NCBI RefSeq assembly: GCF_001651805.1
Contig: NZ_CP015839.1
Location: forward strand, 1-64,000
Length of the DNA: 64,000 bases
Reading direction: 5' to 3'
DNA from: Marinobacterium aestuarii
GTDB lineage: Bacteria; Pseudomonadota; Gammaproteobacteria; Pseudomonadales; Balneatricaceae
Shown: positions 35,835-49,470 of the stretch, piece after piece
Position numbering within the stretch: the first letter of the stretch is position 1
Layout of the letters: each line of letters opens with the position of its first letter
Program-made: the position numbers and the translations under genes
The notes under the pieces: generated by a model
The model's database searches: none
What the model was told of the DNA's origin: nothing
The model's input: the letters and a program-made list of their open reading frames with translations, nothing else

Positions 35835-36965
35835 TCAGACTGCCTGAAAGGCACAGAGGTGGTTGTCCCAGGCCAGGCGGTCCAGCCGCATGTCCTGCAT
35901 CAGCGGCTCGCGCACGCCTTCTCGCGGGTAGAGCCAGTAGACCCGCCCATTGCCACTGCTGGCAATAAACTCCCCCGGCGTCGCGGTGGCGGCAAGACCG
36001 CAGCCATCGCGCACCTCCAGGCTACTCAGATAGGCCGCCTGATCAATATCCCAGAAGGTAATCAGACCGCCGCGCGGTGCGCTGATGGCAGCAATCTTGC
36101 CGCTGCTGTCTATGCGCACGCTGCCGCAGTACTGCGTCATCTGGCGGTTGATCGCCTCAGGCGCACTGAGCGCTTGCAGTTCCTGACCACGGCGGTGCAG
36201 TGCGACCAGCGGTTGGGTGTCCAGCGGGTCGCCTTCATATTGCATGGCCATAACGACGGCCCCGTCCGGGCTCAGATCCAGATGACGGATACTCAGCTGG
36301 TGCTGCTCAGGCGGTAGCATGCGCTGCTCGCTGATCTCGCCTGTGGCCAGTTTCAGGTAGGCAAGGGAGGGCTGCATGCTGTCGAGGTTGAGTTTCAGGC
36401 GCCCCTGGGTACGAATGCCGCCATTGGCGACGATGATTTCATCGCCCGCATGGTTGAGCAGCAGCTCGTGCGGGCCTGTGCCGCCACTGCTGAACTCAGT
36501 CACGGGCTGAAAGCCGTTCTGGGCATCGCGCAGGCTGATGCGTCCTGCGCCGTCGGGCACCGTACTCTCTGTGGCAATCAACCAGCGGCCATCGCGACTG
36601 AACAGCGCATGGCCATAAAATAGCCGGCCAGGTGCAGGTTCAATGCGCTGTACCAGGGCCTGGCTGCGATAGTCCAGCACATCGATAAAGGCGCCGGGGC
36701 GTTTGGCGACCACAGCCACCCAGGGTTGACTGGGATGGGCCGCGACATGGTGTGCCCGGGCGAGCAGCCGGTGGCGCAGGCGCAGTGCGCCCTGGGTATC
36801 GCTGACAATCAGCCAGTGCTGCTGCCGGCTATCGCTGGCGGCGCTGGCCAGCAGCCAGCTCTTATCGTCGGCGGGGCCTGCTACAGGCGGCTGGGCCAGC
36901 AGATTCGGTGCCGTCAGGGCACCGGCGAGCAGCAGGCTGAACTGGCGCCGATTAATCCCCGTCAT
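35835..36965 (-). CDS. DUF1513 protein of the imelysin operon (Tat-exported)
   Basis: A 376-residue protein of the DUF1513 family, probably a beta-propeller, from repeated blade-like segments such as GHALFSRDGRWLIATE and GPHELLLNHAGDEIIVANGG. The N-terminus NRRQFSLLLAGALTAPNLLA has a twin-arginine motif, so it is likely exported folded. It is the last gene of a four-gene unit with two imelysins and a di-haem cytochrome, the order found as PA4370-PA4373, which is iron-regulated in P. aeruginosa. Role unknown. Confidence 0.88.
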   Translation of the reverse strand: MTGINRRQFSLLLAGALTAPNLLAQPPVAGPADDKSWLLASAASDSRQQHWLIVSDTQGALRLRHRLLARAHHVAAHPSQPWVAVVAKRPGAFIDVLDYRSQALVQRIEPAPGRLFYGHALFSRDGRWLIATESTVPDGAGRISLRDAQNGFQPVTEFSSGGTGPHELLLNHAGDEIIVANGGIRTQGRLKLNLDSMQPSLAYLKLATGEISEQRMLPPEQHQLSIRHLDLSPDGAVVMAMQYEGDPLDTQPLVALHRRGQELQALSAPEAINRQMTQYCGSVRIDSSGKIAAISAPRGGLITFWDIDQAAYLSSLEVRDGCGLAATATPGEFIASSGNGRVYWLYPREGVREPLMQDMRLDRLAWDNHLCAFQAV

Positions 36966-37010
36966 GACAGCAGGACCCTGATGTTGCCGTACAGACTGAG
37001 CTGGCACAGG

Positions 37011-38096
37011 TTAGTCCCCGTCACGGCTGTTGAACCCCAGTTGTGCGTTAATGGCAGGCATGGCGTTATAGAGGGCGTGATCCAGCTCTTTCAGGGTGGC
37101 TGAAACGGCTTTCAGCTGGGCATAGCTGTCGGCGTCCTGCAGTGCGGTGGCGAAGTCGCCGGGCACCGCCTCCAGCTGGCTGCGCGCCTGGCTGAAGAGC
37201 CCGCTTATCTGGTCGGCCTGGGCACTGGCACCCTGCTCTCGCAGGATCAGATCAAGGCTGGGGGTCCCCTCTGCGTAGAGTGCCTGCAGTGCCGTCAGGT
37301 TGGTGTTCAGGCTGCGAAGTGATTGGCCGCTGCGCCAGTTTTCGGCGCGTTGCAGTCGTGCCGCGGGCTGATCATTGCCCAACACCAGTTCCAGCTTGCT
37401 GTCGCGGATGACTTCAATCGGTTGCACCAGGGAGCGCAGCAGTTCAAGGCTGAGATCCGGCAGCCCCAGGGAAGAGACTTCGTCGTCATCTTCAGTGGCC
37501 TGGCCTGCGAAATCCGGGGTCTGCCATTCGCTGTGCATCGCCTGGGCGGTGTTGGCCAACTCGGTGCTGATGGCGATTGCGAGGGCGCAGGCATTGGCTT
37601 GCTGCTGCAGCCGTGGCAGCGCACCTGCGTCATAGAACAGGCGCTCCAGCGCCGGGAACCCCTTGATCGATACGCTGGCATGGCGGAAGAAGTCCGCATC
37701 ATAGTTGCCGGCGTCTGGCCCCTGCAGCGCTTCTTTGAGCTGGCGGCCGATGATGCCCTTGCGATCCGGCCAGAACTGGATGCCATAGTTGCGCATCAGC
37801 AGCTGAACCGGGCCGAACTGTACATGCTGGATGCCCTGCCAGGCCTGCAGACTGGCTTCGAAGGCTTGGCGCAGCTGGGGAAAGTCGGCGCTGCTGCGGG
37901 TCTCGCACCAGTGCGCGCTGGTGTCGGCCAGGGTCTGGCTCTGCAGCGCCAGTTGCTGGTAACGGGGCTGGATATGGCCGCTGATGGCACTGGCATTGAA
38001 GGCATCCCAGTCGATGGGCGTTGCTGCCTGGGTCAGGCCCGTGAGCAGCAGGCTGGAGCCTGCCAGCAGTTGGGTGAGTCGAGAGGAGCTGTGCAT
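37011..38096 (-). CDS. Imelysin-family periplasmic protein (second copy)
   Basis: A 361-residue exported protein (signal peptide MHSSSRLTQLLAGSSLLLTGLTQA). It carries imelysin/M75 features such as the LLMRNYGIQFWPDRKGIIGRQL block, but the GxHxxE site reads GFPALE, so the His is replaced. This matches the divergent second imelysin of the PA4370-4373-type cluster. It starts immediately after the DUF1111 stop codon and is probably cotranscribed. It may bind iron or haem in the periplasm; peptidase activity is doubtful. Confidence 0.88.
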   Translation of the reverse strand: MHSSSRLTQLLAGSSLLLTGLTQAATPIDWDAFNASAISGHIQPRYQQLALQSQTLADTSAHWCETRSSADFPQLRQAFEASLQAWQGIQHVQFGPVQLLMRNYGIQFWPDRKGIIGRQLKEALQGPDAGNYDADFFRHASVSIKGFPALERLFYDAGALPRLQQQANACALAIAISTELANTAQAMHSEWQTPDFAGQATEDDDEVSSLGLPDLSLELLRSLVQPIEVIRDSKLELVLGNDQPAARLQRAENWRSGQSLRSLNTNLTALQALYAEGTPSLDLILREQGASAQADQISGLFSQARSQLEAVPGDFATALQDADSYAQLKAVSATLKELDHALYNAMPAINAQLGFNSRDGD

Positions 38097-39551
38097 TTAG
38101 AGTGACTCCAGAAAACGTATCAATTGGGTTCGTTGAGGGGCCGGCATGGTGACGACCCGTTCGCGGGCGGCGCGGGCTTCGCCGCCGTGCCAGAGCACGG
38201 CTTCAAGCAGGTTGCGGGCGCGGCCGTCGTGCAGAAAATAACTGTGTCCGTTGACCGCCGCGGTCTGGCCTGTGCCCCAGAGCGGCGCGGTGCGCCACTC
38301 GCGGCCGCTCGCGGCGAATTCGGCGCGCTCATCCGCCAGGCCCGCGCCCATATCGTGCAGCAGCAGGTCGCTGTAAGGCCAGATGGACTGGCGGCTCAGG
38401 GCCGGCAGTTGCAGGTTCTCGGCGGTAACGAAGTGCGGCTGATGACAGGCTGCGCAGCCAACGTCCTTAAACAGTGTCTGGCCGGCCAGTACCTCGGGGT
38501 CAGCGGCAGAGGGGCGCGGCGTTACGGCTAAATGCTGGCTGTAGAACAGCAGCCAGTCGAGCATCTGTTGCGAGGCTTCGAGCCCGTCCTGCCCCGGAGT
38601 ATTGCCGTCGGGGGCCTCTGTGCAGGCTGTCTGCCGTGGGCTGCAATCGCCGCTGGCAAGGGGAAACAGTGGGTTGCCGATGCCGATATCGCCTTGCAGT
38701 GCGCTGCTGTTCTGTTGTGCAAGGCTCGGATTACCGGCTTTCCAGCCAAAGCGCCCCAGGCGGGTGGTCTGGAGGGCCTGGTCCCAGACACTGTTGGGGC
38801 GCCCGGAGATGCCATCGCCGTTGCTATCATCTGGGTCGGCCAGGCTGAGAATATCGGCGTCGCTGATCTGCTCCAGCAGGCCGAGCCCCGCCATGGCGGG
38901 CGCGATACGCGGAGACATCTGCAGTTCGGGGTGCAGTGGGCCATGGGCTGGCGCCAGAATGCGGTAGCTTGGCGTGCGCAGCCAGGCCTCTTCACCACCC
39001 GATAGCGCAACACGGGCTTCCTCGTAGCTGACCTGCAGTTGCCCCTCGGCCACCATGCCTGGCACGGCGAAGGTTTGCAGCTGGGTGCCATAGGCGGGTT
39101 CCGGTATTACGCCACGGCGGCGCAGCAGTTCCGGATCGGCGTCCTTGTCGATCGGGATACTCAGACGCAGAAACAGTGAAACAGAGTTGTCATTCGGGCC
39201 TGCGGGGGGGCGCCCACGGCCGTTGTTGATATGACAGCGCTGGCACGAACGGGCGTTGTACAAAGGGCCCAGGCCATCGCTGGCGGTGGTGGAGGAAGGG
39301 GATGAAACCCAGAGTTTGCGAAAAATGGCCCGCCCGAGGGCGAAGGTCATCTTGTCGTCAAAGGCAAGATTGGCGGCGCTGCCGGCAAAGGCGCCCGGGG
39401 ACCTTGACAGGGGTTTGGTGGTTGCACCGCCGGGGCGTGTTTCCGTCAGGGTTTGTGGTTGTTCAGATTCAGACGGCGGGCGAGCGACATCCGCCGCAGC
39501 AATCATGGCCGGGCCGAGCAGCAGTACAGCACTCAACAGGCAAGGTCTCAT
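38097..39551 (-). CDS. DUF1111 di-haem cytochrome c (thiol oxidoreductase-like)
   Basis: A 484-residue periplasmic protein with signal peptide MRPCLLSAVLLLGPAMIAAA and two c-type haem motifs, CQRCH (103-107) and CAACH (366-370). Family blocks include DGLGPLYNARSCQRCHINNG and the C-terminal APLWGTGQTAAVNGHSYFLHDGRARNLLEAVLWHG. It is between the two imelysins and is part of a Fur-type iron-acquisition operon. It might change the redox state of iron for uptake; this is inference from the context. Confidence 0.92.
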   Translation of the reverse strand: MRPCLLSAVLLLGPAMIAAADVARPPSESEQPQTLTETRPGGATTKPLSRSPGAFAGSAANLAFDDKMTFALGRAIFRKLWVSSPSSTTASDGLGPLYNARSCQRCHINNGRGRPPAGPNDNSVSLFLRLSIPIDKDADPELLRRRGVIPEPAYGTQLQTFAVPGMVAEGQLQVSYEEARVALSGGEEAWLRTPSYRILAPAHGPLHPELQMSPRIAPAMAGLGLLEQISDADILSLADPDDSNGDGISGRPNSVWDQALQTTRLGRFGWKAGNPSLAQQNSSALQGDIGIGNPLFPLASGDCSPRQTACTEAPDGNTPGQDGLEASQQMLDWLLFYSQHLAVTPRPSAADPEVLAGQTLFKDVGCAACHQPHFVTAENLQLPALSRQSIWPYSDLLLHDMGAGLADERAEFAASGREWRTAPLWGTGQTAAVNGHSYFLHDGRARNLLEAVLWHGGEARAARERVVTMPAPQRTQLIRFLESL

Positions 39552-39615
39552 GGGCTTAGGACAGTGCCCGGCGCTTGGCGTCGGGGCTTGTCGTGCAGTC
39601 TCTTAGGCAGCGGCG

Positions 39616-40908
39616 TTACGGGGCCTGTACGGCGGCCGGGTTGTCCAGGCTGTCGGAGCCCTCAACATTGACCTGACCCAGCTCGAGGCGGGCAATGACT
39701 TCTTCGGTGGTGCGCGTCTGGGCGATCAGGGAGTCGACAAAGGCCTGGATGCGGGCGCCGCCGGCGGTATTGCCGGGCGCTATCATGACATCATAGGGCT
39801 CGCCGGCTGCGGCGGAATCCACCATCACCTGGGCGGCCAGCTGGGTCTGATCCAGCTGCTGGCGCAGGCGCTTGTCCAGTTCAGGGTCGACGCTGGCGAC
39901 CAGTGCCGCCAGCGAGGGGCCTTGCATCAGGCTGCCGTCGATACGGCTGTATTTGCCCAGGTAAACATTCTGGATGCCTTTGGCATCATAGAAGTGCGAC
40001 CAGTGGGTGTTGTCCGAGAAGCAGTCGTGCTCTTCTTCCGGGTCATGCAGCATCAGGCCCAGCTTGGTGCGCTCGCCGGCCAGTTCGCCGTAGGCCAGGC
40101 TGCCCATGCCGGTGGTGATAGTGGCCAGGCCGTCGGTCACCGACTTGGCCGTCAGTTCGCTGCGGGCGGCGCCACTGGCCTGCCAGTTGCCCACCATTTC
40201 TTCCAGGTCCTGCACCAGCAATGCGCTGGCCGCACGCAGATAGTCGCCGCGCCGGTCGCAGTTGCCGCCGGTGCAGTTGCTGCTGTCGTAATCGGTGGCG
40301 GGCCTCTCGCCGGCACCCAGCGTCATGCCGTTCAGGTCCTGGCCCCAGAGCAGAAACTCGATGGCGTGATAGCCGGTGGCGACGTTGGATTCGACGCCGT
40401 CGATTTCATGCAGAGATGTGGACAGCAGCTCAGGTGTAATGGTGCTGGCATCCAGGGTACGGCCGCCTATTTGCAGGATCGGATTGGCGATGATGTTGGC
40501 GCTGTAGAAGGGGTTTTCGTCCGATTCTTCGCCGTAGCTGTCCGTGGCGACGTAGTCGATCAGACCCTCGTCCAGCGGCCAGGCATTCACGCGGCCTTCC
40601 CAGTCATCGACGATGCTGTTGCCAAAGCGGAAGGCTTCGGATTGCTGATAGGGCACACGGGCCGCGATCCAGGCACTGCGGGCTGTCTGCAGCGTCTGCT
40701 CGCTCGGCGTGCTGATCAACTGTTCAATGGCGCTGTGCAGGGCACGGGCGCTTGTCAGGGCGTCGCTGTAGGTTGCCAGGGCCAGGTCCGCATAGTGCGT
40801 CACTATGGCCTGTGAATCCACGGAAGTATCGGTTCCGGCGGCCTGGGCCTGAGTTGAGCCCAGCATGCAGGCCAGCGAAAGGGACATCAGGGTGCGATTG
40901 AATGGCAT
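39616..40908 (-). CDS. Imelysin-family protein, IrpA/IcmP-like (first copy)
   Basis: A 430-residue exported imelysin with signal peptide MPFNRTLMSLSLACMLGSTQ and the family motif GYHAIE at 179-184, the GxHxxE site proposed to bind iron. Other blocks are AWIAARVPYQQSEAFRFGN and LLWGQDLNGMTLGAGERPATDYDSSNC. It is the first gene of the operon and is preceded by a possible Fur box. P. aeruginosa IcmP (PA4370) is the closest relative known to me. An upstream in-frame ATG at 40944 exists, but the later one gives a clean signal peptide. Confidence 0.92.
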   Translation of the reverse strand: MPFNRTLMSLSLACMLGSTQAQAAGTDTSVDSQAIVTHYADLALATYSDALTSARALHSAIEQLISTPSEQTLQTARSAWIAARVPYQQSEAFRFGNSIVDDWEGRVNAWPLDEGLIDYVATDSYGEESDENPFYSANIIANPILQIGGRTLDASTITPELLSTSLHEIDGVESNVATGYHAIEFLLWGQDLNGMTLGAGERPATDYDSSNCTGGNCDRRGDYLRAASALLVQDLEEMVGNWQASGAARSELTAKSVTDGLATITTGMGSLAYGELAGERTKLGLMLHDPEEEHDCFSDNTHWSHFYDAKGIQNVYLGKYSRIDGSLMQGPSLAALVASVDPELDKRLRQQLDQTQLAAQVMVDSAAAGEPYDVMIAPGNTAGGARIQAFVDSLIAQTRTTEEVIARLELGQVNVEGSDSLDNPAAVQAP

Positions 40909-40957
40909 TGTGCGTGTTCCCGGGCTCAGCGAATGTTGAGGCAAATGCTAAACGGAA

Positions 40958-41455: not shown

Positions 41456-43066
41456 ATGAACAAGACAAGACAAGCGATTTCGACCGTCGCCCTCAGCATC
41501 TGCGCAGCCCTGACCTGCAGTCTTGCCGTGGCCGCCCCAGCGCCAGTGCAGCTTGAGCAGGGCTGGGACGCGGCGGCGCGCGACGAAGTGCATCACCTGA
41601 GCTTCGGCTCCCGCATCCTTCCCTACGCCTGGTTGCTGCACCTGGAGCGCGCCGACAGCACTGAGTTGCTGCGCAGCGACGGTTACCTCGACAGCCTGGG
41701 CTTCATCCCGACCGGGGCCAGTGCCGCCAACCCCGATGCGCTGCCGATCGGCTTCAGCCGCACCAGCGATGACAACGGCGACGTCTGGGCGGGTCTCACC
41801 TGCGCCGCCTGCCATACCGGTGAGCTGAGTTACCAGGGGCAGCAGGTGCTGATCGAGGGTGGCGCGGCGCTGATCAATTACAGCGGCCTGGAGCAGGCAC
41901 TGGTCGATGCGATTACGGCCACCCTCGGCGACGCGCAGAAATTTTCCCGCTTCCTCGCTGGCGTACAGCCGGCCGACACCGCTGTGCTGCGGGGGCAGCT
42001 CGAGCAGCGCCTGGGCTACCTGCAGCAGCGCCAGCGAACCAATGCGTCCGAAACGCCCTATGGCCCGGGCCGGCTCGATGCCTTCGGGCAGATCTTCAAT
42101 ACGGTCGCTGTCGAGCTGCTTGGCCTGCCCGCCAACGCGCGGCCGGCAAATGCCCCGGTGAGTTTCCCCTTCCTCTGGGGTGCCTCGCACCTGGATCTGG
42201 TGCAGTGGAACGGTTCGGCGCCGAACCAGGCCCCGGGGCCCCTGGTGCAAAACGTCACCACTGCACTGGCCGTCTATGGCACTGCTGATCTGAAGGACTA
42301 TTCGGGAAGCGCCGGCTACCCGAGTTCGGTTGAGCTGGTCAACCTCGGCACCCTGCAGGATCACTTCTACCAGCTGCAGGCGCCCCGCTGGCCGGAGGCA
42401 CTGTTCGGCGCGCTGGATGAGACGCGGCGTCAGCACGGCGAGACGCTGTACAGCGACAACTGCCTGCGCTGTCATGCGCTCAGTGATCGTGCGCAGCCGG
42501 ATCGCGAGCTGCGTGCGATCCTGGTGCCGCTGGCCGAGATCGGCACCGATGCCACCATGGCGCGCAACTTCATCGACGCCACCGCTGCCACCGGGGTGCT
42601 TGAAGGGCGCGACCAGATGGTGCTGGCTGGCACGTCCTTCGGCGCCGAGGCCCGCACCGTCGACCTGGTAGTTCACGCTGCCATCGGCGCTACGCTGCGC
42701 CACCCGCTGGATGCCGTCAGGGCGTCGCTCGAGGGTTATCACGCGGTCTACAGCGCGCAGGTCAGCAGCAACCCCGAATTCTACAAGGCCCGCCCGCTGA
42801 GTGGCATCTGGGCCTCGGCGCCCTATCTGCACAACGGTTCGGTTCCGAACCTGCACGCCCTGTTGCTGCCGCCTGAACAGCGACCTGCGAGCTTCGGGCT
42901 GGGCAGCCGCGAACTGGATCCGGTGGCGGTGGGTTATGTGGATGATGCCGGCGGCGACCGCTTCGATACCCGCCTTGCGGGTAACAACAATGGCGGCCAT
43001 GTCTACGGCACCGGCCTGAATGAAGAAGAGCGTATGGCCCTGATCGAGTACCTGAAAAGCCTCTGA
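41456..43066 (+). CDS. Secreted RoxA/MauG-like di-haem cytochrome c
   Basis: A 536-residue exported protein (signal peptide SICAALTCSLAVAA-AP) with haem motifs CAACH at 116-120 and CLRCH at 336-340. Conserved text around LPIGFSRTSDD, FPFLWGASHLDLVQWNGSA and APYLHNGSVPNL is typical of the di-haem cytochrome c peroxidase/RoxA group, in which a Trp lies between the haems; Trp251 in VQWNGS is a candidate. RoxA cleaves isoprenoid polymer with O2, while MauG makes high-valent haem. It heads an operon with a paralogue (39 bp downstream) and a patatin. Substrate unknown. Confidence 0.85.
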   Translation: MNKTRQAISTVALSICAALTCSLAVAAPAPVQLEQGWDAAARDEVHHLSFGSRILPYAWLLHLERADSTELLRSDGYLDSLGFIPTGASAANPDALPIGFSRTSDDNGDVWAGLTCAACHTGELSYQGQQVLIEGGAALINYSGLEQALVDAITATLGDAQKFSRFLAGVQPADTAVLRGQLEQRLGYLQQRQRTNASETPYGPGRLDAFGQIFNTVAVELLGLPANARPANAPVSFPFLWGASHLDLVQWNGSAPNQAPGPLVQNVTTALAVYGTADLKDYSGSAGYPSSVELVNLGTLQDHFYQLQAPRWPEALFGALDETRRQHGETLYSDNCLRCHALSDRAQPDRELRAILVPLAEIGTDATMARNFIDATAATGVLEGRDQMVLAGTSFGAEARTVDLVVHAAIGATLRHPLDAVRASLEGYHAVYSAQVSSNPEFYKARPLSGIWASAPYLHNGSVPNLHALLLPPEQRPASFGLGSRELDPVAVGYVDDAGGDRFDTRLAGNNNGGHVYGTGLNEEERMALIEYLKSL

Positions 43067-43105
43067 TCACGGCCCCTGGAACAACTGACGTAGCTGGTAA
43101 GGATA

Positions 43106-45427
43106 ATGACAAGAAGAAATACCCCTGGGTCGCTGAGTCTCATGGCCCGTCTCTGGCTGCTGATTGGCAGGCTACTGAAACGGCTGCTGCTGCTTGCCCT
43201 GATGCTGGTACTGGTGGCGCTGGGTGGCTTTGCCTGGTATGTGCTCTGGCCGGTACAGGGGATGGCACCGCTGGAGTCGGTTGATGAGCTGGTCTACCTC
43301 GACCAGGGCTGGAACAGCGACGATCGCCAGACCTACTACTACACGCCCCAGGGCACGTTCATGCCCCAGGGCGCGAGCCTTGGGGCGGTGCGCTACGATT
43401 GGTTTGTGCACCTGCGACTGCCCTTTTCCGAGCAGCGCTTGGCTGATCCCGAGTACCTGCGCCGCTATCGCTTTCTGGTGGACCCGGCGCCGACGCCGCA
43501 AAACCCCGACCGGCTGCCGGTCGGCTTCACCCGGCATTTCGATACGCAGATCGGCGAAGAGGTGCTCGATATCACCTGCGCGGCCTGTCACAGTGGCCAG
43601 CTGCACTACAACCGCGGCGACAAAAGCTACGCGCTGCGCGTCGATGGTGGTCAGGCAATGCATGCCCTGACCGACAGCGCCCGGGGGCAGTTTGCACCGA
43701 TGCTGCTGGCGTCTCTGGCCTATACCACGGTCAATCCGCTCAAGTTCGACCAGTTCGCCCAGGATGTTCTGGGCAGCCGCTATCCGGCCGGCAAGGCGCA
43801 GCTGCGCAGCAATCTCTGGACGTCGCTGCAGCATTTCCTCAGTGATCCGCAGAACAATCCGTTCAAGCACCTGTATCCGGTCGAAGAAGGCTATGGCCGT
43901 ACCGATGCGCTGGGACGGATCGGTAACACCGTCTTCGGCGACCACCTGATCGAGCAGAACCTGCAGGTCGGCTCGGCGCCGGTCAGCTACCCCTATCTCT
44001 GGAATATCTGGAAGTTCGACTGGGTACAGTACAACGGTTCAGTGGCGCAACCGCTGGCGCGCAACATCGGTGAGGCTCTGGGGGTCGGCGCCCGGTTACC
44101 GCTGTTGAGCGATACCGGTGCGCCCTTGCCGGCCAGCGAACGCTTTCGCAGCTCCGTCCGGGTGCCGGATCTGGTGCGGATCGAGGGGCGGCTGCAGCAA
44201 CTACGCCCGCCGGTCTGGCCGGAATCGGTTTTCGGGCCTGTGGACCAGGGTCTGGCGACCACCGGGCGCGAGCTGTTCGTCGAGAACTGTCAGGGCTGCC
44301 ACGGTCCCCACGAGGTGAGCCGCGCCCGCCAGCAGGCAAATGCGCCGCTCAAACCCTCGTCAGCGCTGGAATGGCGCATCGAGGTGGTCCCGCTTGAGCA
44401 TGTAGGCACAGATCCGGCCGCTGCCCAGGGCTTCCTCGAACGCCACTATGACCTCAGCCCCACCGGCCTGACCGACGCCGATCTGGAAAACACGTTGCGG
44501 CCGCTGCTGTACCGCCAGCTGGTGCGTGGTGTCCGCTATCGCTTGCGTGAAGTGATCCGGTTGCGTGAACAGCAGGCGCTGCCGGTGGACGGGCTGCCGC
44601 TCATCCTCGCCGGCTATCCGTCCGAAACCGCTGAGGCGACAATTCCACAGTCGACCTTCGACGCCATCGGTCGGGCGCTGGCTGCACTGCCGGGCGCGCT
44701 GCCGCGGGTGCCCGACGCCGCGGCCGGCGCGCCGGACCCGCTGGAGTGCGACCTCGACTGCCAGACGGTGGCGCTGTTGTGGCATCTTGACCATGGTCAG
44801 CCCCAGGCTGACGCCACGCTTGCGGCGCTGGACGTTCGCCGCCTCAGCGAAGGCGAGGCGCTGGGCGTCACCGGTGTGCTGATCAAGAACCGTTATTATC
44901 AGGACCATGGCATCGGTTACGAACAGCAGCAGTGCCTCGAAGGCTTCGGCACCCTCGATCTGCCGCAGCAGATCGCGGGCTACAAGCCACGGCCGCTGGC
45001 CGGTGTCTGGGCCACGCCGCCCTTCCTGCACAACGGTTCGGTGCCGTCGATCGACCAGTTGCTGTCGCCGCCGGAAGCCCGCGACACACGCTTCCTGCTG
45101 GGGTCACGTCAGTACGACCCGGAACATCTGGGGTACCTGGTGGTTCGCGCCGATGACGCCAGCGGCGAGGAACGTGGTTTCTGGTTCGACACCTCGCGCG
45201 AGGGCAACGGCAATGGCGGCCATGCCTTTAGCGCCGATCCCGCGCTCTGGGCGCGCCACCAGGCGGCTCCGGACGAATATCCGCTGCCGTCCGGTGTCAT
45301 CGGGCCCCTGCTCAGCCAGCATCAGAGGATGGCTCTGCTGGAGTACCTGAAGATCCATCGCGACAGCCCGACCACGCCGGCAGGCTACCGGGCGACCGAC
45401 TGCGGCCTGATGAGTGGCGTGCTATGA
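43106..45427 (+). CDS. Membrane-anchored RoxA/MauG-like di-haem cytochrome c
   Basis: A 773-residue paralogue of the preceding protein. It has an uncleaved N-terminal helix (LLKRLLLLALMLVLVALGGF, about 23-45) instead of a signal peptide, haem motifs CAACH (158-162) and CQGCH (395-399), and matching blocks LPVGFTRHFD, SYPYLWNIWKFDWVQYNGSV and PPFLHNGSVPSI. The Trp of VQWNGS is Tyr here, and there are two longer insertions. It probably faces the periplasm. Its stop overlaps the patatin start (ATGA), so the three genes are one unit. Confidence 0.85.
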   Translation: MTRRNTPGSLSLMARLWLLIGRLLKRLLLLALMLVLVALGGFAWYVLWPVQGMAPLESVDELVYLDQGWNSDDRQTYYYTPQGTFMPQGASLGAVRYDWFVHLRLPFSEQRLADPEYLRRYRFLVDPAPTPQNPDRLPVGFTRHFDTQIGEEVLDITCAACHSGQLHYNRGDKSYALRVDGGQAMHALTDSARGQFAPMLLASLAYTTVNPLKFDQFAQDVLGSRYPAGKAQLRSNLWTSLQHFLSDPQNNPFKHLYPVEEGYGRTDALGRIGNTVFGDHLIEQNLQVGSAPVSYPYLWNIWKFDWVQYNGSVAQPLARNIGEALGVGARLPLLSDTGAPLPASERFRSSVRVPDLVRIEGRLQQLRPPVWPESVFGPVDQGLATTGRELFVENCQGCHGPHEVSRARQQANAPLKPSSALEWRIEVVPLEHVGTDPAAAQGFLERHYDLSPTGLTDADLENTLRPLLYRQLVRGVRYRLREVIRLREQQALPVDGLPLILAGYPSETAEATIPQSTFDAIGRALAALPGALPRVPDAAAGAPDPLECDLDCQTVALLWHLDHGQPQADATLAALDVRRLSEGEALGVTGVLIKNRYYQDHGIGYEQQQCLEGFGTLDLPQQIAGYKPRPLAGVWATPPFLHNGSVPSIDQLLSPPEARDTRFLLGSRQYDPEHLGYLVVRADDASGEERGFWFDTSREGNGNGGHAFSADPALWARHQAAPDEYPLPSGVIGPLLSQHQRMALLEYLKIHRDSPTTPAGYRATDCGLMSGVL

Positions 45428-47520
45428 ACGATCTTGGCAGCGGCGACCTGGCGTCGCCCGAGGCGCCCCGTTATACCCGGGACTTCGACGCGGTGCAGCG
45501 TGAAGAGCGGCAATGGATCAGGCAGCGGCGCCGGGCCACCGGCACAGTGCCGGACGATGCGCCTGTGGTCGGCCTGGCGCTGTCGGGCGGCGGCATCCGT
45601 TCGGCGACCTTCAACCTCGGCATCCTGCAGGCGCTGTCCCGCCGTGGGCTGCTGCCCCAGGTCGACTATCTGTCGTCGGTGTCCGGCGGCGGCTATATCG
45701 CCTCCAGCCTGAGCTGGCTGCGCAGCCACTTTCCGCTACGACAGCATCGCGACGTCGGTGCTGCACCGCTGGCCGAGGGCGGAGGTACGGTGCTGGACTG
45801 GCTACGTGCCCAGGGCAATTATCTGATCAACGGCCGCGGTTTTTCCGGCTGGACCCTGGGCGCGGCGATCCTCGCCGGCTCGTTGCTGAACCTGATCGTG
45901 CTGCTGCCGCTGCTGCTCGGGCTGGTTGCCCTGGCCAGTACCAACTGGACCGAGCGCCAGTGGCCGACCTGGCTGCACCTGCCGGGCGCCAAGGTCATCG
46001 CGGGCCACGACGGTTTCATGCTGCTGTTCTGGGCAGGGCCGCTGTGCCTGGGGCTCTATCTGGCGACGACCTTGCTGTTTGCGCTCAGCTCGGCGCCGGT
46101 GCTCGAGCGGCGCTTGCCAATGGATCGTCTTCGTACCCTTATGGGGGCACTGCTGGCCGCGGCCGTTATCACTACCGGCATCGGCCTGCTGCCGGTGTTC
46201 ACCGGGCTGGAAGAATCAGTGCTGCACTACTTCGACCACCAGGGACTTGCCGGGCTGAGCCGCCACCTGACCTACCTTGGGCCCTTGCTGATCGGGGCGC
46301 TGGTGGTAAGGGCTGCGCGGGCGAGCCGGGTGGGCTCCCTCGCGGTTGTCGGCGTCTCGCTGCTCTGTTATGGCCTGCTGACGCTGCTCTATCACCTCAG
46401 TGCGCACACGGGACTGGTCGGCTCCGCGGCATTTTACGGCTGGCTCGGCCTGTCGCTGACGCTGGCGCTGGTCTGCAATATCAACTCGCTGTCACTGCAC
46501 AGCTATTATCGCGGCCGGCTCGCCCACGCCTACCTGCCGGAGGTCGCGGCAGCGGGCTCCGGGGAGGATCCGCTGCACTTTCGTCTTGCCGATGTCCGGC
46601 CCGACAGTGGTGCTGCATTGCACCTGATCAACTGCACGCTCAATACCAGCAGTTCGCGGCGCGAAAAACAGCGCAGCCGGCGCGGAGAGTCGCTGGTGCT
46701 GAGCCCGCTCTATTGTGGCTCGGCCGCGACCGGCTTTCGCCACTGCGATGATTATCTGGGTGGCAACCTGAGCCTGTCGACGGCCTTTTCGATTTCGGGC
46801 GCGGCGGTGGACCCCAACACCTACGTCACCAGCTCCCGGGCGCTGAGCTTCCTGATGACGCTGCTGAACCTGCGCCTCGGCTACTGGGCCCGCAATCCGG
46901 CTGCCGAAGGGCGCCGGGGCTGGCTGCCGGGCTGGTACCGTTACATGTTCCGGGAATTGACCGGCCGCGGCCTGGCGGAAACCGAGGCGGAGATCCACCT
47001 GTCCGACGGCGGCCACTTCGAAAACCTGGGGCTCTACGAACTGGTGCGTCGTCGCTGTCGCTATATCGTCGTCTGCGATGCCGGCGCGGATCCGGACGGC
47101 ACCCTGTTCGATCTGGGCCGGGCGATCCAGCGGGTGCGGGCGGACTTCGGTGTCGAAGTCGAACTGGGCATCGAGGCGTTGCACCACGGCGATCCAGCGC
47201 CGGGCCCTGCCTGCCTTCCCGGCCGTATCCGCTATGCCGACGGCTCGCAGGGCGAGGTCCTGTATATCAAGACCGCGCTGTGCGCGAACCTGAGTGCCGA
47301 CATCTACGCCTACTGGCGGGCCAACCCGAGTTTTCCGAACCAGGCCACGGCCGACCAGTTCTTCGACGAAATGCAGTTCGACAGCTACCGTCAGCTCGGA
47401 CTGGAACTGATGTCCGGCCTGCTGGCCGACGGGGACGATACCTTCGAGGCGCTGTTTGCCCGGCTGCAAGGTACTGATATTGCCGACAAATCGGTAGCGT
47501 CGGTGCCGGCAAGTCGCTAG
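45424..47520 (+). CDS. Patatin-like phospholipase with inserted membrane segments
   Basis: A 698-residue protein. The patatin elements are the oxyanion loop GGGIRS at 55-60, the nucleophile elbow SVSGG with Ser87, and the catalytic Asp528 in DGGHFENLG. Between them, residues about 145-355 hold five or six hydrophobic helices, so the active-site halves are separated by a membrane domain. No signal peptide is seen; the N-terminus is charged and presumably cytoplasmic. Such proteins hydrolyse acyl chains from phospholipids. Translational coupling to the di-haem gene suggests shared lipid substrates; this is inference. Confidence 0.85.
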   Translation: MNDLGSGDLASPEAPRYTRDFDAVQREERQWIRQRRRATGTVPDDAPVVGLALSGGGIRSATFNLGILQALSRRGLLPQVDYLSSVSGGGYIASSLSWLRSHFPLRQHRDVGAAPLAEGGGTVLDWLRAQGNYLINGRGFSGWTLGAAILAGSLLNLIVLLPLLLGLVALASTNWTERQWPTWLHLPGAKVIAGHDGFMLLFWAGPLCLGLYLATTLLFALSSAPVLERRLPMDRLRTLMGALLAAAVITTGIGLLPVFTGLEESVLHYFDHQGLAGLSRHLTYLGPLLIGALVVRAARASRVGSLAVVGVSLLCYGLLTLLYHLSAHTGLVGSAAFYGWLGLSLTLALVCNINSLSLHSYYRGRLAHAYLPEVAAAGSGEDPLHFRLADVRPDSGAALHLINCTLNTSSSRREKQRSRRGESLVLSPLYCGSAATGFRHCDDYLGGNLSLSTAFSISGAAVDPNTYVTSSRALSFLMTLLNLRLGYWARNPAAEGRRGWLPGWYRYMFRELTGRGLAETEAEIHLSDGGHFENLGLYELVRRRCRYIVVCDAGADPDGTLFDLGRAIQRVRADFGVEVELGIEALHHGDPAPGPACLPGRIRYADGSQGEVLYIKTALCANLSADIYAYWRANPSFPNQATADQFFDEMQFDSYRQLGLELMSGLLADGDDTFEALFARLQGTDIADKSVASVPASR

Positions 47521-47652: not shown

Positions 47653-49470
47653 ATGATACTCGCCCAGATACCCAGAACACTGGCTCCTGCGCATCTGTAC
47701 AGTCTGCTGCTAGTGTTGTGCGCACTCGGCGCAGGCCTGATAACGGGGCTGGCACATGCTCAGGCTGGCGCCGCGACGCCCGCCCTGCTCGTGCAGGATC
47801 TGACGCGGGCCACGCTCAGGCCCTATCTTGAGCTGCTCGAAGATCCCGGTGCCAAGCTGACCTTTGACGATATCCGCGGCCCGGATCTCGTCCAGAATTT
47901 CGCAAACCTGGGGCTGCAGTCGCCCAATTTCGGTTTCACCGACTCTGCCTGGTGGGTACGATTGCGTCTGGACAACCCCGACGACAAGACGGTGCCGGTG
48001 ATTATCCGGCAGGACTATCCGCTGATCGACCGTCTCGACTTCTGGTCGCAGGACGCTGACGGACACTGGCAGCAACTCGCCACCGGCGACCGTCTTCCTT
48101 TCGGTACCCGGCCCATCAATAACCGTACCTTTCTGTTCCCTGTCGAACTGCCGCCGCACAGCGAACGCACCTATTACCTGCGCTTCGAGACCCAGGGCGC
48201 GATGAATATCGGGCTCTTCGCCCATGGCCCCAACGATCTGATCGATCAGATCTCCCACGAATATCTGGCGCTGGGGGTCTACTACGGCGGCTTTATCGTG
48301 CTGCTGATTTATAACCTGATCATGTTCGTGACAGTGCGCGAGCGCACTTTTGCCCACTATCTGCTGTACGTGCTCAGCTACGGCCTCTACATGTCGGTGC
48401 ACAACGGGCTGAGCTTCCAGTACCTCTGGCCCAACAACACCTGGCTGGCGAACCAGAGCCTGCTGCTACTGCTGGCGCTATCGCTGCTCGGGTGTATCCG
48501 CTTTACCCGGACCATACTGTCATCCGCCTCGCTGGCGCCGACCGCGGATCGCATCGCGGCCTTGCTGGAGCTCTGCATGGTGGGCGCCTTTCTGGTGACA
48601 CCTTTCCTGAGCTATCGCACCCTGATTGTGCCGATGGCACTGATGACGGCGCTGATCTGCCTGCACATGCTGCTGATGGGGTCTGTCACGCTATGGCGGG
48701 GATCGAGGCCGGCGCGTTATTACATGGTGGCTTTCACGGCGCTGCTGGGCGGCGTGCTGGCCTACATGCTCAAGACCTTTGGTCTGCTGCCACACAATGG
48801 CATTACCCAGAATGCTTTCCAGATCGGCTCTCTGGTGGAAATGGTACTGCTGAGCCTGGCGGTGGGCAGTCGTATCAGCGAACTGCGCCAGCGCAGCTAT
48901 ATCGACGCCCTGACGCAGTTGCATAACAGGCGCTACTTCAATGACCAGGTAGCGTCGGAGTTCTACCGCGCGCGCCGGCGCAAGCAGCCGCTGTCGCTGG
49001 TGGTCCTGGACATCGACAATTTCAAGGCCTTCAACGACAGTCATGGTCACGCCGAGGGTGACCTGGCACTGAAGGCTGTGGCGCGCACCCTGGGCAGCTG
49101 TCTGCGCAAGCCCAACTGTCCCTGCCGTTACGGCGGCGAGGAGTTCGTGGTGATCCTGCCGAATACCTCCGAGGCCCAGGTGGCGGTGCTCGCCGAGCGC
49201 ATTCGCCGCGAGGTCGAGCGGGCGACCGCCGCCAGCTTCGGGCTGACTGTCAGTGCCGGCCATGCCACCCTGCAGGGCTCAAGCTTCGGCAACCCTCTGG
49301 ATCTGTTCGTGGCCGCCGATTTCGCCCTCTATGCCGCCAAGGAGGGCGGGCGTAACCGGGTGGTCGACTATCGCAACTGCGAGTCCAAACGCAAGGGCGA
49401 CGGGCTGGCTGCCGCAAAGACGTCGCCGAGCCCGTTCGCGCAGCCGGCGATGGACCCCCCGCCACGCTGA
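47653..49470 (+). CDS. 7TM-DISM diguanylate cyclase
   Basis: A 605-residue membrane protein: signal-like helix (about 14-38), periplasmic 7TMR-DISMED2 sensor (about 45-190, with SAWWVRLRLDNPDD), seven helices (about 205-400) and a GGDEF domain (about 425-590) whose active site is GGEEF at 494-498. It makes c-di-GMP. The inhibitory I-site would be RxxD five residues before GGEEF; here it is RKPN (485-488), so product inhibition may be weak. It follows the patatin gene by 132 bp on the same strand and converges on the carbonic anhydrase gene with a 7-bp gap. Confidence 0.93.
   Translation: MILAQIPRTLAPAHLYSLLLVLCALGAGLITGLAHAQAGAATPALLVQDLTRATLRPYLELLEDPGAKLTFDDIRGPDLVQNFANLGLQSPNFGFTDSAWWVRLRLDNPDDKTVPVIIRQDYPLIDRLDFWSQDADGHWQQLATGDRLPFGTRPINNRTFLFPVELPPHSERTYYLRFETQGAMNIGLFAHGPNDLIDQISHEYLALGVYYGGFIVLLIYNLIMFVTVRERTFAHYLLYVLSYGLYMSVHNGLSFQYLWPNNTWLANQSLLLLLALSLLGCIRFTRTILSSASLAPTADRIAALLELCMVGAFLVTPFLSYRTLIVPMALMTALICLHMLLMGSVTLWRGSRPARYYMVAFTALLGGVLAYMLKTFGLLPHNGITQNAFQIGSLVEMVLLSLAVGSRISELRQRSYIDALTQLHNRRYFNDQVASEFYRARRRKQPLSLVVLDIDNFKAFNDSHGHAEGDLALKAVARTLGSCLRKPNCPCRYGGEEFVVILPNTSEAQVAVLAERIRREVERATAASFGLTVSAGHATLQGSSFGNPLDLFVAADFALYAAKEGGRNRVVDYRNCESKRKGDGLAAAKTSPSPFAQPAMDPPPR

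Follow-up and report, generated by a model that had tools for sequence, protein, structure and literature searches.

The window analysed here comprises the first 64,000 nucleotides of contig NZ_CP015839.1 of Marinobacterium aestuarii (positions 1 to 64,000, forward strand; assembly GCF_001651805.1). Our subject is an operon of plus-strand genes that encodes two di-haem cytochromes, a patatin and a diguanylate cyclase. The first gene, cytA (41456-43066, + strand), encodes a secreted di-haem RoxA-like cytochrome of 536 aa, which we propose to be a lipid dioxygenase. After a spacer of 39 nt with an AAGGA ribosome-binding-like site (43067-43105, + strand) comes cytB (43106-45427, + strand), whose product is a membrane-anchored di-haem paralogue of 773 aa that may be a second-step enzyme or hydroperoxide handler. 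The coordinates of the open reading frames (ORFs) place an ATGA overlap between cytB and the patatin gene (45424-47520, + strand). The 698-aa patatin, a proposed acyl-chain-releasing phospholipase, carries Ser87 and Asp528 on either side of an inserted membrane domain. CytA carries the haem motifs CAACH (116-120) and CLRCH (336-340), and CytB carries CAACH (158-162) and CQGCH (395-399). The PYLHNGSVP at 456 in CytA is matched by PFLHNGSVP at 639 in CytB, and one aligned column holds Trp251 in CytA and Tyr309 in CytB. Export and membrane assignments rest on a simple hydropathy window rather than a topology program. By this measure the N-terminus of CytA resembles a signal peptide (hydrophobic run 6-31) and that of CytB an anchor (run 16-51), and the patatin has four hydrophobic runs between Ser87 and Asp528 (142-176, 197-227, 238-262 and 301-326). 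An initial annotation of this DNA had described two di-haem genes, a membrane-inserted patatin and the ATGA overlap, and the ORFs, haem motifs and hydrophobic runs were all found as it stated. Its inventory was right for these three genes and left out a fourth (47653-49470, + strand). This product has 7TMR-DISMED2, 7TMR-DISM_7TM and GGDEF domains (Pfam) with an intact GGEEF active site, the features of a 7TMR-DISM diguanylate cyclase, and is the proposed receptor and output of the module. A consensus scan of the + strand between the patatin gene and this gene revealed no terminator-like site.

Both cytochromes belong to NCBIfam family NF040606 (cut-off 150 bits), CytA over its full length (545 bits, 2e-163) and CytB in two stretches (467 bits, 1.3e-139). 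The C-terminal RoxA-like domain PF21419 of Pfam was matched at 3.6e-18 by CytA and 1.6e-15 by CytB, and neither matched the Pfam family PF03150 (CCP_MauG) at E<=1. The equivalog models for RoxA, RoxB and RoxC (NF050033, NF050034 and NF051462) gave both proteins only 27-78 bits against cut-offs of 900-1000. The best PDB match of an AlphaFold2 (AF2) model of CytA (predicted local distance difference test (pLDDT) 90.2, predicted template modelling score (pTM) 0.89) was RoxA (4b2n), with Z 18.3 over 397 residues. The next matches, hydrazine synthase, peroxidases and MauG, reached Z <=12.1 over ~200-240 residues, the MauG/peroxidase chains scoring 8.6-11 over that length. In a sequence alignment, His515 of CytA aligns with the distal His641 of RoxA. 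Judged from its model, CytA is a member of the RoxA-like fold branch rather than of the CcpA/MauG one. The first half of the earlier label 'RoxA/MauG-like' is thus borne out, for CytA by fold and for both proteins by domain; its second half reduces to a shared superfamily fold. Grouping with ordinary cytochrome c peroxidases, which the initial annotation had named as a refutation of its proposal, was not seen on the basis of domains and the CytA fold, with no tree that included peroxidases. A MauG-like maturation enzyme was ruled out, as fold and domain matches favour RoxA.

The patatin has the motifs GGGIR (55-59), SVSGG (85-89, with Ser87) and SDGGH (527-531, with Asp528), which agree with the GGGxR, x-x-S-x-G and DG[GA] pattern of patatin-like phospholipases. 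Ser87, Asp528 and GGGIR are invariant in all nine aligned homologues. The Pfam patatin family PF01734 was matched by the N-terminal part only (29.1 bits, cut-off 27.7, 1.4e-6), and the best PDB match of the patatin profile, likewise confined to an N-terminal stretch, was cytosolic phospholipase A2 (PLA2)-delta (E 5.5e-4). An anti-phage patatin effector was ruled out, since the PADLOC models gave no match at E<=0.1 for CytA, CytB or the patatin.

Conservation was examined in a sample of 116 genomes of the family, in which G000 is the window's genome. An NF040606 protein over the cut-off was found in 26 and a long patatin in 13, all of them among the 26. In the neighbourhoods of all 13, a patatin of this kind stands beside a di-haem gene. 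The order cytA-cytB-patatin occurs in seven of the 116 (G000, G028, G030, G032, G033, G038 and G045). G042 has cytB-patatin with cytA absent, and in G071, G072 and G076 the order is cytochrome-cytochrome P450 (P450)-patatin-7TMR/GGDEF. In two genomes of the window's genus, G029 and G031, the only patatin is of a second type, found in a cassette made up of a di-haem protein (~850 aa), a GMC oxidoreductase and this patatin. The window's genome holds this second cassette too (G000:C1:3625474-3632348, L039:3474-10348; ~850-aa di-haem protein, 804-aa patatin), with the order of G028 (L289), G029 and G031; G201 and G418 show another order or strand. Counted by genus, co-occurrence within the family is little informative (the patatin occurs in 3 of 16 genera, each of which belongs to the 10 that have a cytochrome over the cut-off).

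A scan of named genomes, in which the best 80 of at least 534 relatives were kept and which leans towards CytA, yielded four loci with cytA, cytB, patatin and sensor together: L154 (Marinobacterium nitratireducens, the same locus as L040), L155 (a gammaproteobacterial metagenome-assembled genome (MAG)), and L156 and L158 (Dokdonella MAGs, order Lysobacterales). In the last three loci cytA is encoded on the strand opposite to that of patatin, cytB and sensor, a layout that differs from the window's, so two arrangements of the linkage exist; both the patatin and the sensor of L158 are broken into two frames each. Conservation in rearranged form rules out chance adjacency. The closest CytA relatives without the module among these 80 loci are L157 (Cellvibrio) and L159 (Marinibactrum). 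In L044 and L045, from the family's second genus, a PhoD-like phosphatase gene lies upstream of cytA. In the window, imelysin, di-haem oxidoreductase (DHOR), imelysin and DUF1513 genes lie divergent from cytA (35835-40944, - strand), and imelysin and DHOR genes likewise adjoin a lone NF040606 gene in G016 (L150).

Quick IQ-TREE trees with SH-aLRT support were computed for 126 cytochromes, with a patatin tree of 38 rows. CytA and CytB fall into two well-separated subfamilies. The CytB clade has 11 rows (support 100), all patatin-linked, and the CytA clade 12 rows (support 99), 10 of them patatin-linked. All 11 rows of the window's patatin clade (support 100) are di-haem-linked. The three trees hold the same subgroups, namely Marinobacterium, the second genus, and Dokdonella with the MAG, their branching order being unsettled. 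The coupling of the three families that the initial annotation put forward is supported by this agreement and by the conserved adjacency, and the survey of co-occurrence and gene order that it suggested turned out in its favour, the trio being adjacent in the seven family genomes and together in L155, L156 and L158. Di-haem-linked patatins also make up all six rows of a second clade and the singletons L132, L164 and L236, so the patatin/di-haem association is recurrent. The window's genome encodes a third NF040606 protein, the product of a lone Tyr-type gene (G000:C1:434584-436341, L038:7578-9455) whose flanking genes resemble those in G031 (L048). Since such lone Tyr-type enzymes exist, Trp or Tyr is ruled out as a strict mark of role, and the CytA/CytB pair combines one member each from two separated subfamilies.

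To see what else the wider cytochrome family keeps beside it, neighbouring genes were clustered without labels over 140 loci, a set that includes loci chosen by their patatin and near-duplicates and in which most recurrent neighbours are unannotated. Patatin (16 loci), catalase-like (14), P450 (14) and 7TMR/GGDEF (13) genes were the most frequent, the next reaching 7. The catalase-like and P450 genes are immediately adjacent to the cytochrome in all 14 of their loci each. In the best 80 named loci, which were selected by their cytochrome only, catalase-like genes were found within three genes of the cytochrome in 11, P450 genes in 6 and patatin genes in 5; the 416 genes farther away include none of the three (Fisher p 0.0003, 0.012 and 0.012, uncorrected for kinship). 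The tree neighbours of CytB are cytochromes that adjoin a catalase-like gene (L046, L142, L145, L210, L218 and L222). In the Pseudomonas loci L210, L218 and L222 the relative concerned is membrane-anchored. Plasmid pNGR234a (L234, 404342-421997) has a catalase-like gene, a small hypothetical gene, a di-haem gene and a patatin in a row, with a shorter di-haem-like frame upstream (28% to cytA). Its patatin cannot be aligned to the window's by BLAST and so represents another patatin type; patatins of several separate clades adjoin NF040606-type cytochromes. In pMRAD01 a di-haem gene has on one side a long patatin, on the opposite strand, and on the other, past a regulator, an annotated P450, which is Pfam-confirmed and has no BLAST match to the reference P450s. 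The copies examined in Ruegeria, two Rhizobium and one Bradyrhizobium have other neighbours. Two Rhizobium plasmids (L237 and L238) share the order helix-turn-helix regulator, di-haem protein, S8/S53 peptidase, serine protease. The P450s found carry ordinary haem-Cys motifs, and the CYP74 kind is established for none. In eukaryotes, conversion of fatty-acid hydroperoxides is known from haemoproteins of the catalase-related and CYP74 groups (PMC5617202, PMC8124189). Catalase-like and P450 genes are recurrent alternatives to the second di-haem protein, and we therefore think that the module makes and converts a lipid hydroperoxide. The recurrent patatin, catalase-like and P450 neighbours of the family fit lipid-hydroperoxide chemistry.

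Homologues of the window's sensor, 46-94% identical over ~400-600 residues, adjoin the module in the trio loci of the genus Marinobacterium, in L155, L156 and L158, and in G071, G072 and G076. A related sensor gene thus accompanies the module in most trio-bearing groups and in a third genus. The other 7TMR proteins compared are 26-31% identical to it, except in G038, a trio-bearing genome of the second genus whose 59% relative lies elsewhere in the genome (L286). The six genomes searched have one or two 7TM-domain proteins each, and in four (G000, G028, G030 and G072) one of these is the gene beside the module. In G042, with two 7TM matches, no related sensor was found; one match (26%) adjoins a cytochrome-catalase pair rather than the patatin. 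Since the second genus, searched in G038 and G042, keeps the trio without a nearby sensor, the trio does not need one next to it. The 7TMR neighbour in L046 is only 26% identical and was discounted from the 13 sensor loci of the clustering. Around the wider family in the best 80 named loci there was no 7TMR enrichment (3 near, 4 far, p 0.75), so the sensor link is confined to the related clade. The 7TMR-DISMED2 domain is otherwise predicted to sense carbohydrate (PMC8846402), which makes a lipid ligand for the window's sensor speculation.

We propose that the operon is a self-supplied lipid oxygenation module of oxylipin type, with a rough probability of about one half. The membrane-embedded patatin, by its family and motifs, would release fatty acyl chains from membrane phospholipid and would replace external fatty acid. 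Secreted CytA may then add O2 to an unsaturated chain to give a hydroperoxide, as its relatives suggest. Membrane-anchored CytB could handle this hydroperoxide as PA2078 does after PA2077, a tandem pair in Pseudomonas aeruginosa discussed below. Elsewhere a P450 or catalase-like haemoprotein stands in CytB's place beside the cytochrome and may share its function. The 7TMR-DISM diguanylate cyclase would translate the presence of the product, or of another envelope ligand, into a cyclic di-GMP (c-di-GMP) signal. The earlier suggestion that the patatin frees lipids for the cytochromes to oxidise is partly supported, with wider-family neighbours that fit lipid oxygenation; that the substrate is a patatin-released acyl chain is what we infer. 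We think it unlikely that the genes form a full bacterial lipid-hormone circuit. Such a circuit would have a PLA2-like patatin, a Trp-type dioxygenase with a Tyr-type partner that together yield an oxylipin, and the 7TMR-DISM diguanylate cyclase as the receptor that sets c-di-GMP. Its second-step enzyme would be swappable for a P450 or catalase-like haemoprotein, paralleling eukaryotic cascades with unrelated oxygenases.

Several observations weigh against a self-supplied lipid oxygenation module. Thirteen of the 26 cytochrome-bearing family genomes have no long patatin, and among the best 80 named loci 22 have any of the three partners and 58 none. In a class sample of 369 genomes, with cytochromes called at E<=1e-20, patatin (24 genomes) and cytochrome (20) occur together in seven (expected 1.3, p 9e-5, uncorrected for kinship); outside the window's own genome they were never seen side by side. 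Five of these genomes (G143, G201, G410, G418 and G458) have the two genes on separate contigs, and in G357 they are ~20 kb apart. Apart from the window genome's, only 2 of 20 patatin neighbourhoods of the class are di-haem-linked (three of the 24 patatin-bearing genomes were left out, and some neighbourhoods end at contig ends); in these two, G201 and G418, the di-haem gene next to the patatin is of another type and comes with a GMC oxidoreductase. Around 13 class-sample cytochrome loci, from which five of the 20 genomes and one 3.7-kb contig were left out, catalase-like genes numbered 2, P450 genes 4 and patatins 0 (p 0.25, 0.059 and 1). The patatin has no export signal and its catalytic halves probably face the cytoplasm, as its sequence suggests, and the cytochromes are exported, so the product would have to cross the membrane. 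The AF2 model of the patatin, from five sequences, had a mean pLDDT of 52, too poor for use. In CytA, equivalence of the Trp251/Tyr309 column with RoxA W302 is a candidate only, and no Phe occurs within 24 residues after Trp251. As published, RoxA F317 and PA2077 F269 lie 15 and 18 residues after their Trp (PMC4496055). No LysR-type regulator like OdsR of the P. aeruginosa pair was recognised beside the operon in the ORF list and the Pfam matches of the flanking genes. The haem motifs also differ from those of PA2077, which are given as CAGCH/CAACH with PYFHNGSVP (PMC4496055), and their value in defining subfamilies is uncertain. Likeness to PA2077/PA2078, the nearest precedent, is one of published description, and membership of that subfamily is putative.

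The main rival, which explains much of the same evidence, is lipid-peroxide repair, and we regard it as rather unlikely. The patatin would excise peroxidised chains, and the di-haem proteins would serve as membrane-side peroxidases that draw on the respiratory chain for electrons to reduce the hydroperoxides, whether freed or still bound in phospholipid. In other bacteria the catalase-like and P450 partners would play an equivalent part. NF040606 is indeed named 'di-heme-cytochrome C peroxidase' in NCBIfam, its patatin, catalase-like and P450 neighbours suit peroxide handling equally, and a phospholipase accompanied by two haem enzymes, one exported and one anchored, suits membrane care. PA2078 itself has been read as a detoxifier of the PA2077 product (PMC4496055). 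The fold of CytA is, however, RoxA-like and not CcpA-like, and repair has no obvious need to keep a Trp-type and a Tyr-type enzyme together. RoxA and PA2077 are oxygenases, though PA2078 is not (PMC4496055). It is improbable that CytA and CytB, being RoxA-like, cleave a polyisoprenoid, carotenoid, quinone or hopanoid, with the patatin for lipid turnover only. RoxA is the nearest solved structure and PF21419 is named RoxA-like, but the equivalog scores fall far below their cut-offs and no isoprenoid gene cluster was recognised among the recurrent, mostly unannotated neighbours. Very improbable is an envelope-sensing c-di-GMP module that makes no oxylipin, with the di-haem proteins as redox sensors for the cyclase and the patatin remodelling membranes: a related sensor gene stays beside the module in three groups, but the second genus keeps the trio with a sensor relative elsewhere (G038) or none found among two matches (G042).

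How bacteria make oxylipins is understood in few species so far. If the operon is a self-supplied lipid oxygenation module, several gammaproteobacterial groups would have in common an operon with its own phospholipase, a candidate oxygenase pair and a candidate receptor. It would open to test where bacterial oxylipin substrates originate, how the product is sensed, and what NF040606 proteins do in the 26 of 116 family genomes that have them.

The initial annotation knew of no described system of this composition, which overlooks the oleate 10S-dioxygenase/diol synthase pair of P. aeruginosa (PMC4496055, PMC5155153, PMC6377657). PA2077 (oleate 10S-dioxygenase) and PA2078 (7,10-diol synthase), also known as FadCcp and the ODS system, are a tandem RoxA-like di-haem pair (PMC4496055), exported and similar in size to CytA and CytB. 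They act on free fatty acids (PMC4496055, PMC5155153, PMC6377657); their activity is periplasmic, and their products affect motility and biofilm and serve as quorum signals (PMC5155153, PMC6377657). Both haem His were tested, and both are needed in PA2077 and neither in PA2078; without PA2078 the PA2077 hydroperoxide is toxic (PMC4496055). One partner has a Trp at the inter-haem place and the other does not (Trp251 in PA2077, Ser243 in PA2078; PMC4496055), the same kind of asymmetry as Trp251/Tyr309 here, with column equivalence unproven. The haem motifs are 245 and 235 residues apart in the published pair (PMC4496055), compared with 220 in CytA and 237 in CytB. The regulator OdsR is LysR-type, and in the work described there the fatty acid was added or host-derived (PMC5155153, PMC6377657). 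The available portions of these papers mention no patatin or diguanylate cyclase with the pair, whereas the window's operon has both (PMC4496055, PMC5155153, PMC6377657). The published FadCcp motif was found in 0 of 398 Pseudomonas genomes; a PF21419 protein is present in 136 of 199, and the 35 that were read (loci L240-L275) carry other motifs. Open-licence PMC literature yielded no description joining a di-heme-cytochrome C peroxidase with a patatin-like phospholipase, nor a patatin/di-heme/cytochrome P450 cluster.

RoxA resembles CytA in fold, in the distal His and in PF21419; RoxA, RoxB and RoxC differ in identity (23%) and in equivalog score, and the published haem spacing of RoxA is 199. 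We know of no patatin partner of RoxA, RoxB or RoxC. MauG, the bacterial cytochrome c peroxidases and hydrazine synthase share with CytA the common di-haem superfamily fold (Z 8.6-12.1) and differ in the shorter aligned length and the missing CCP_MauG match. The eukaryotic cytosolic PLA2 (cPLA2)-cyclooxygenase/lipoxygenase and plant lipase-lipoxygenase-CYP74 cascades consist of a phospholipase, a dioxygenase, a second haemoprotein and a receptor. The window's module would follow the same logic with unrelated oxygenases, an analogy in which homology is limited to the patatin/cPLA2 nucleophile region. By this analogy the module looks like a bacterial route for cutting fatty acids from the cell's own lipids, oxidising them and perhaps sensing the product, resembling the lipid hormones of animals and plants.

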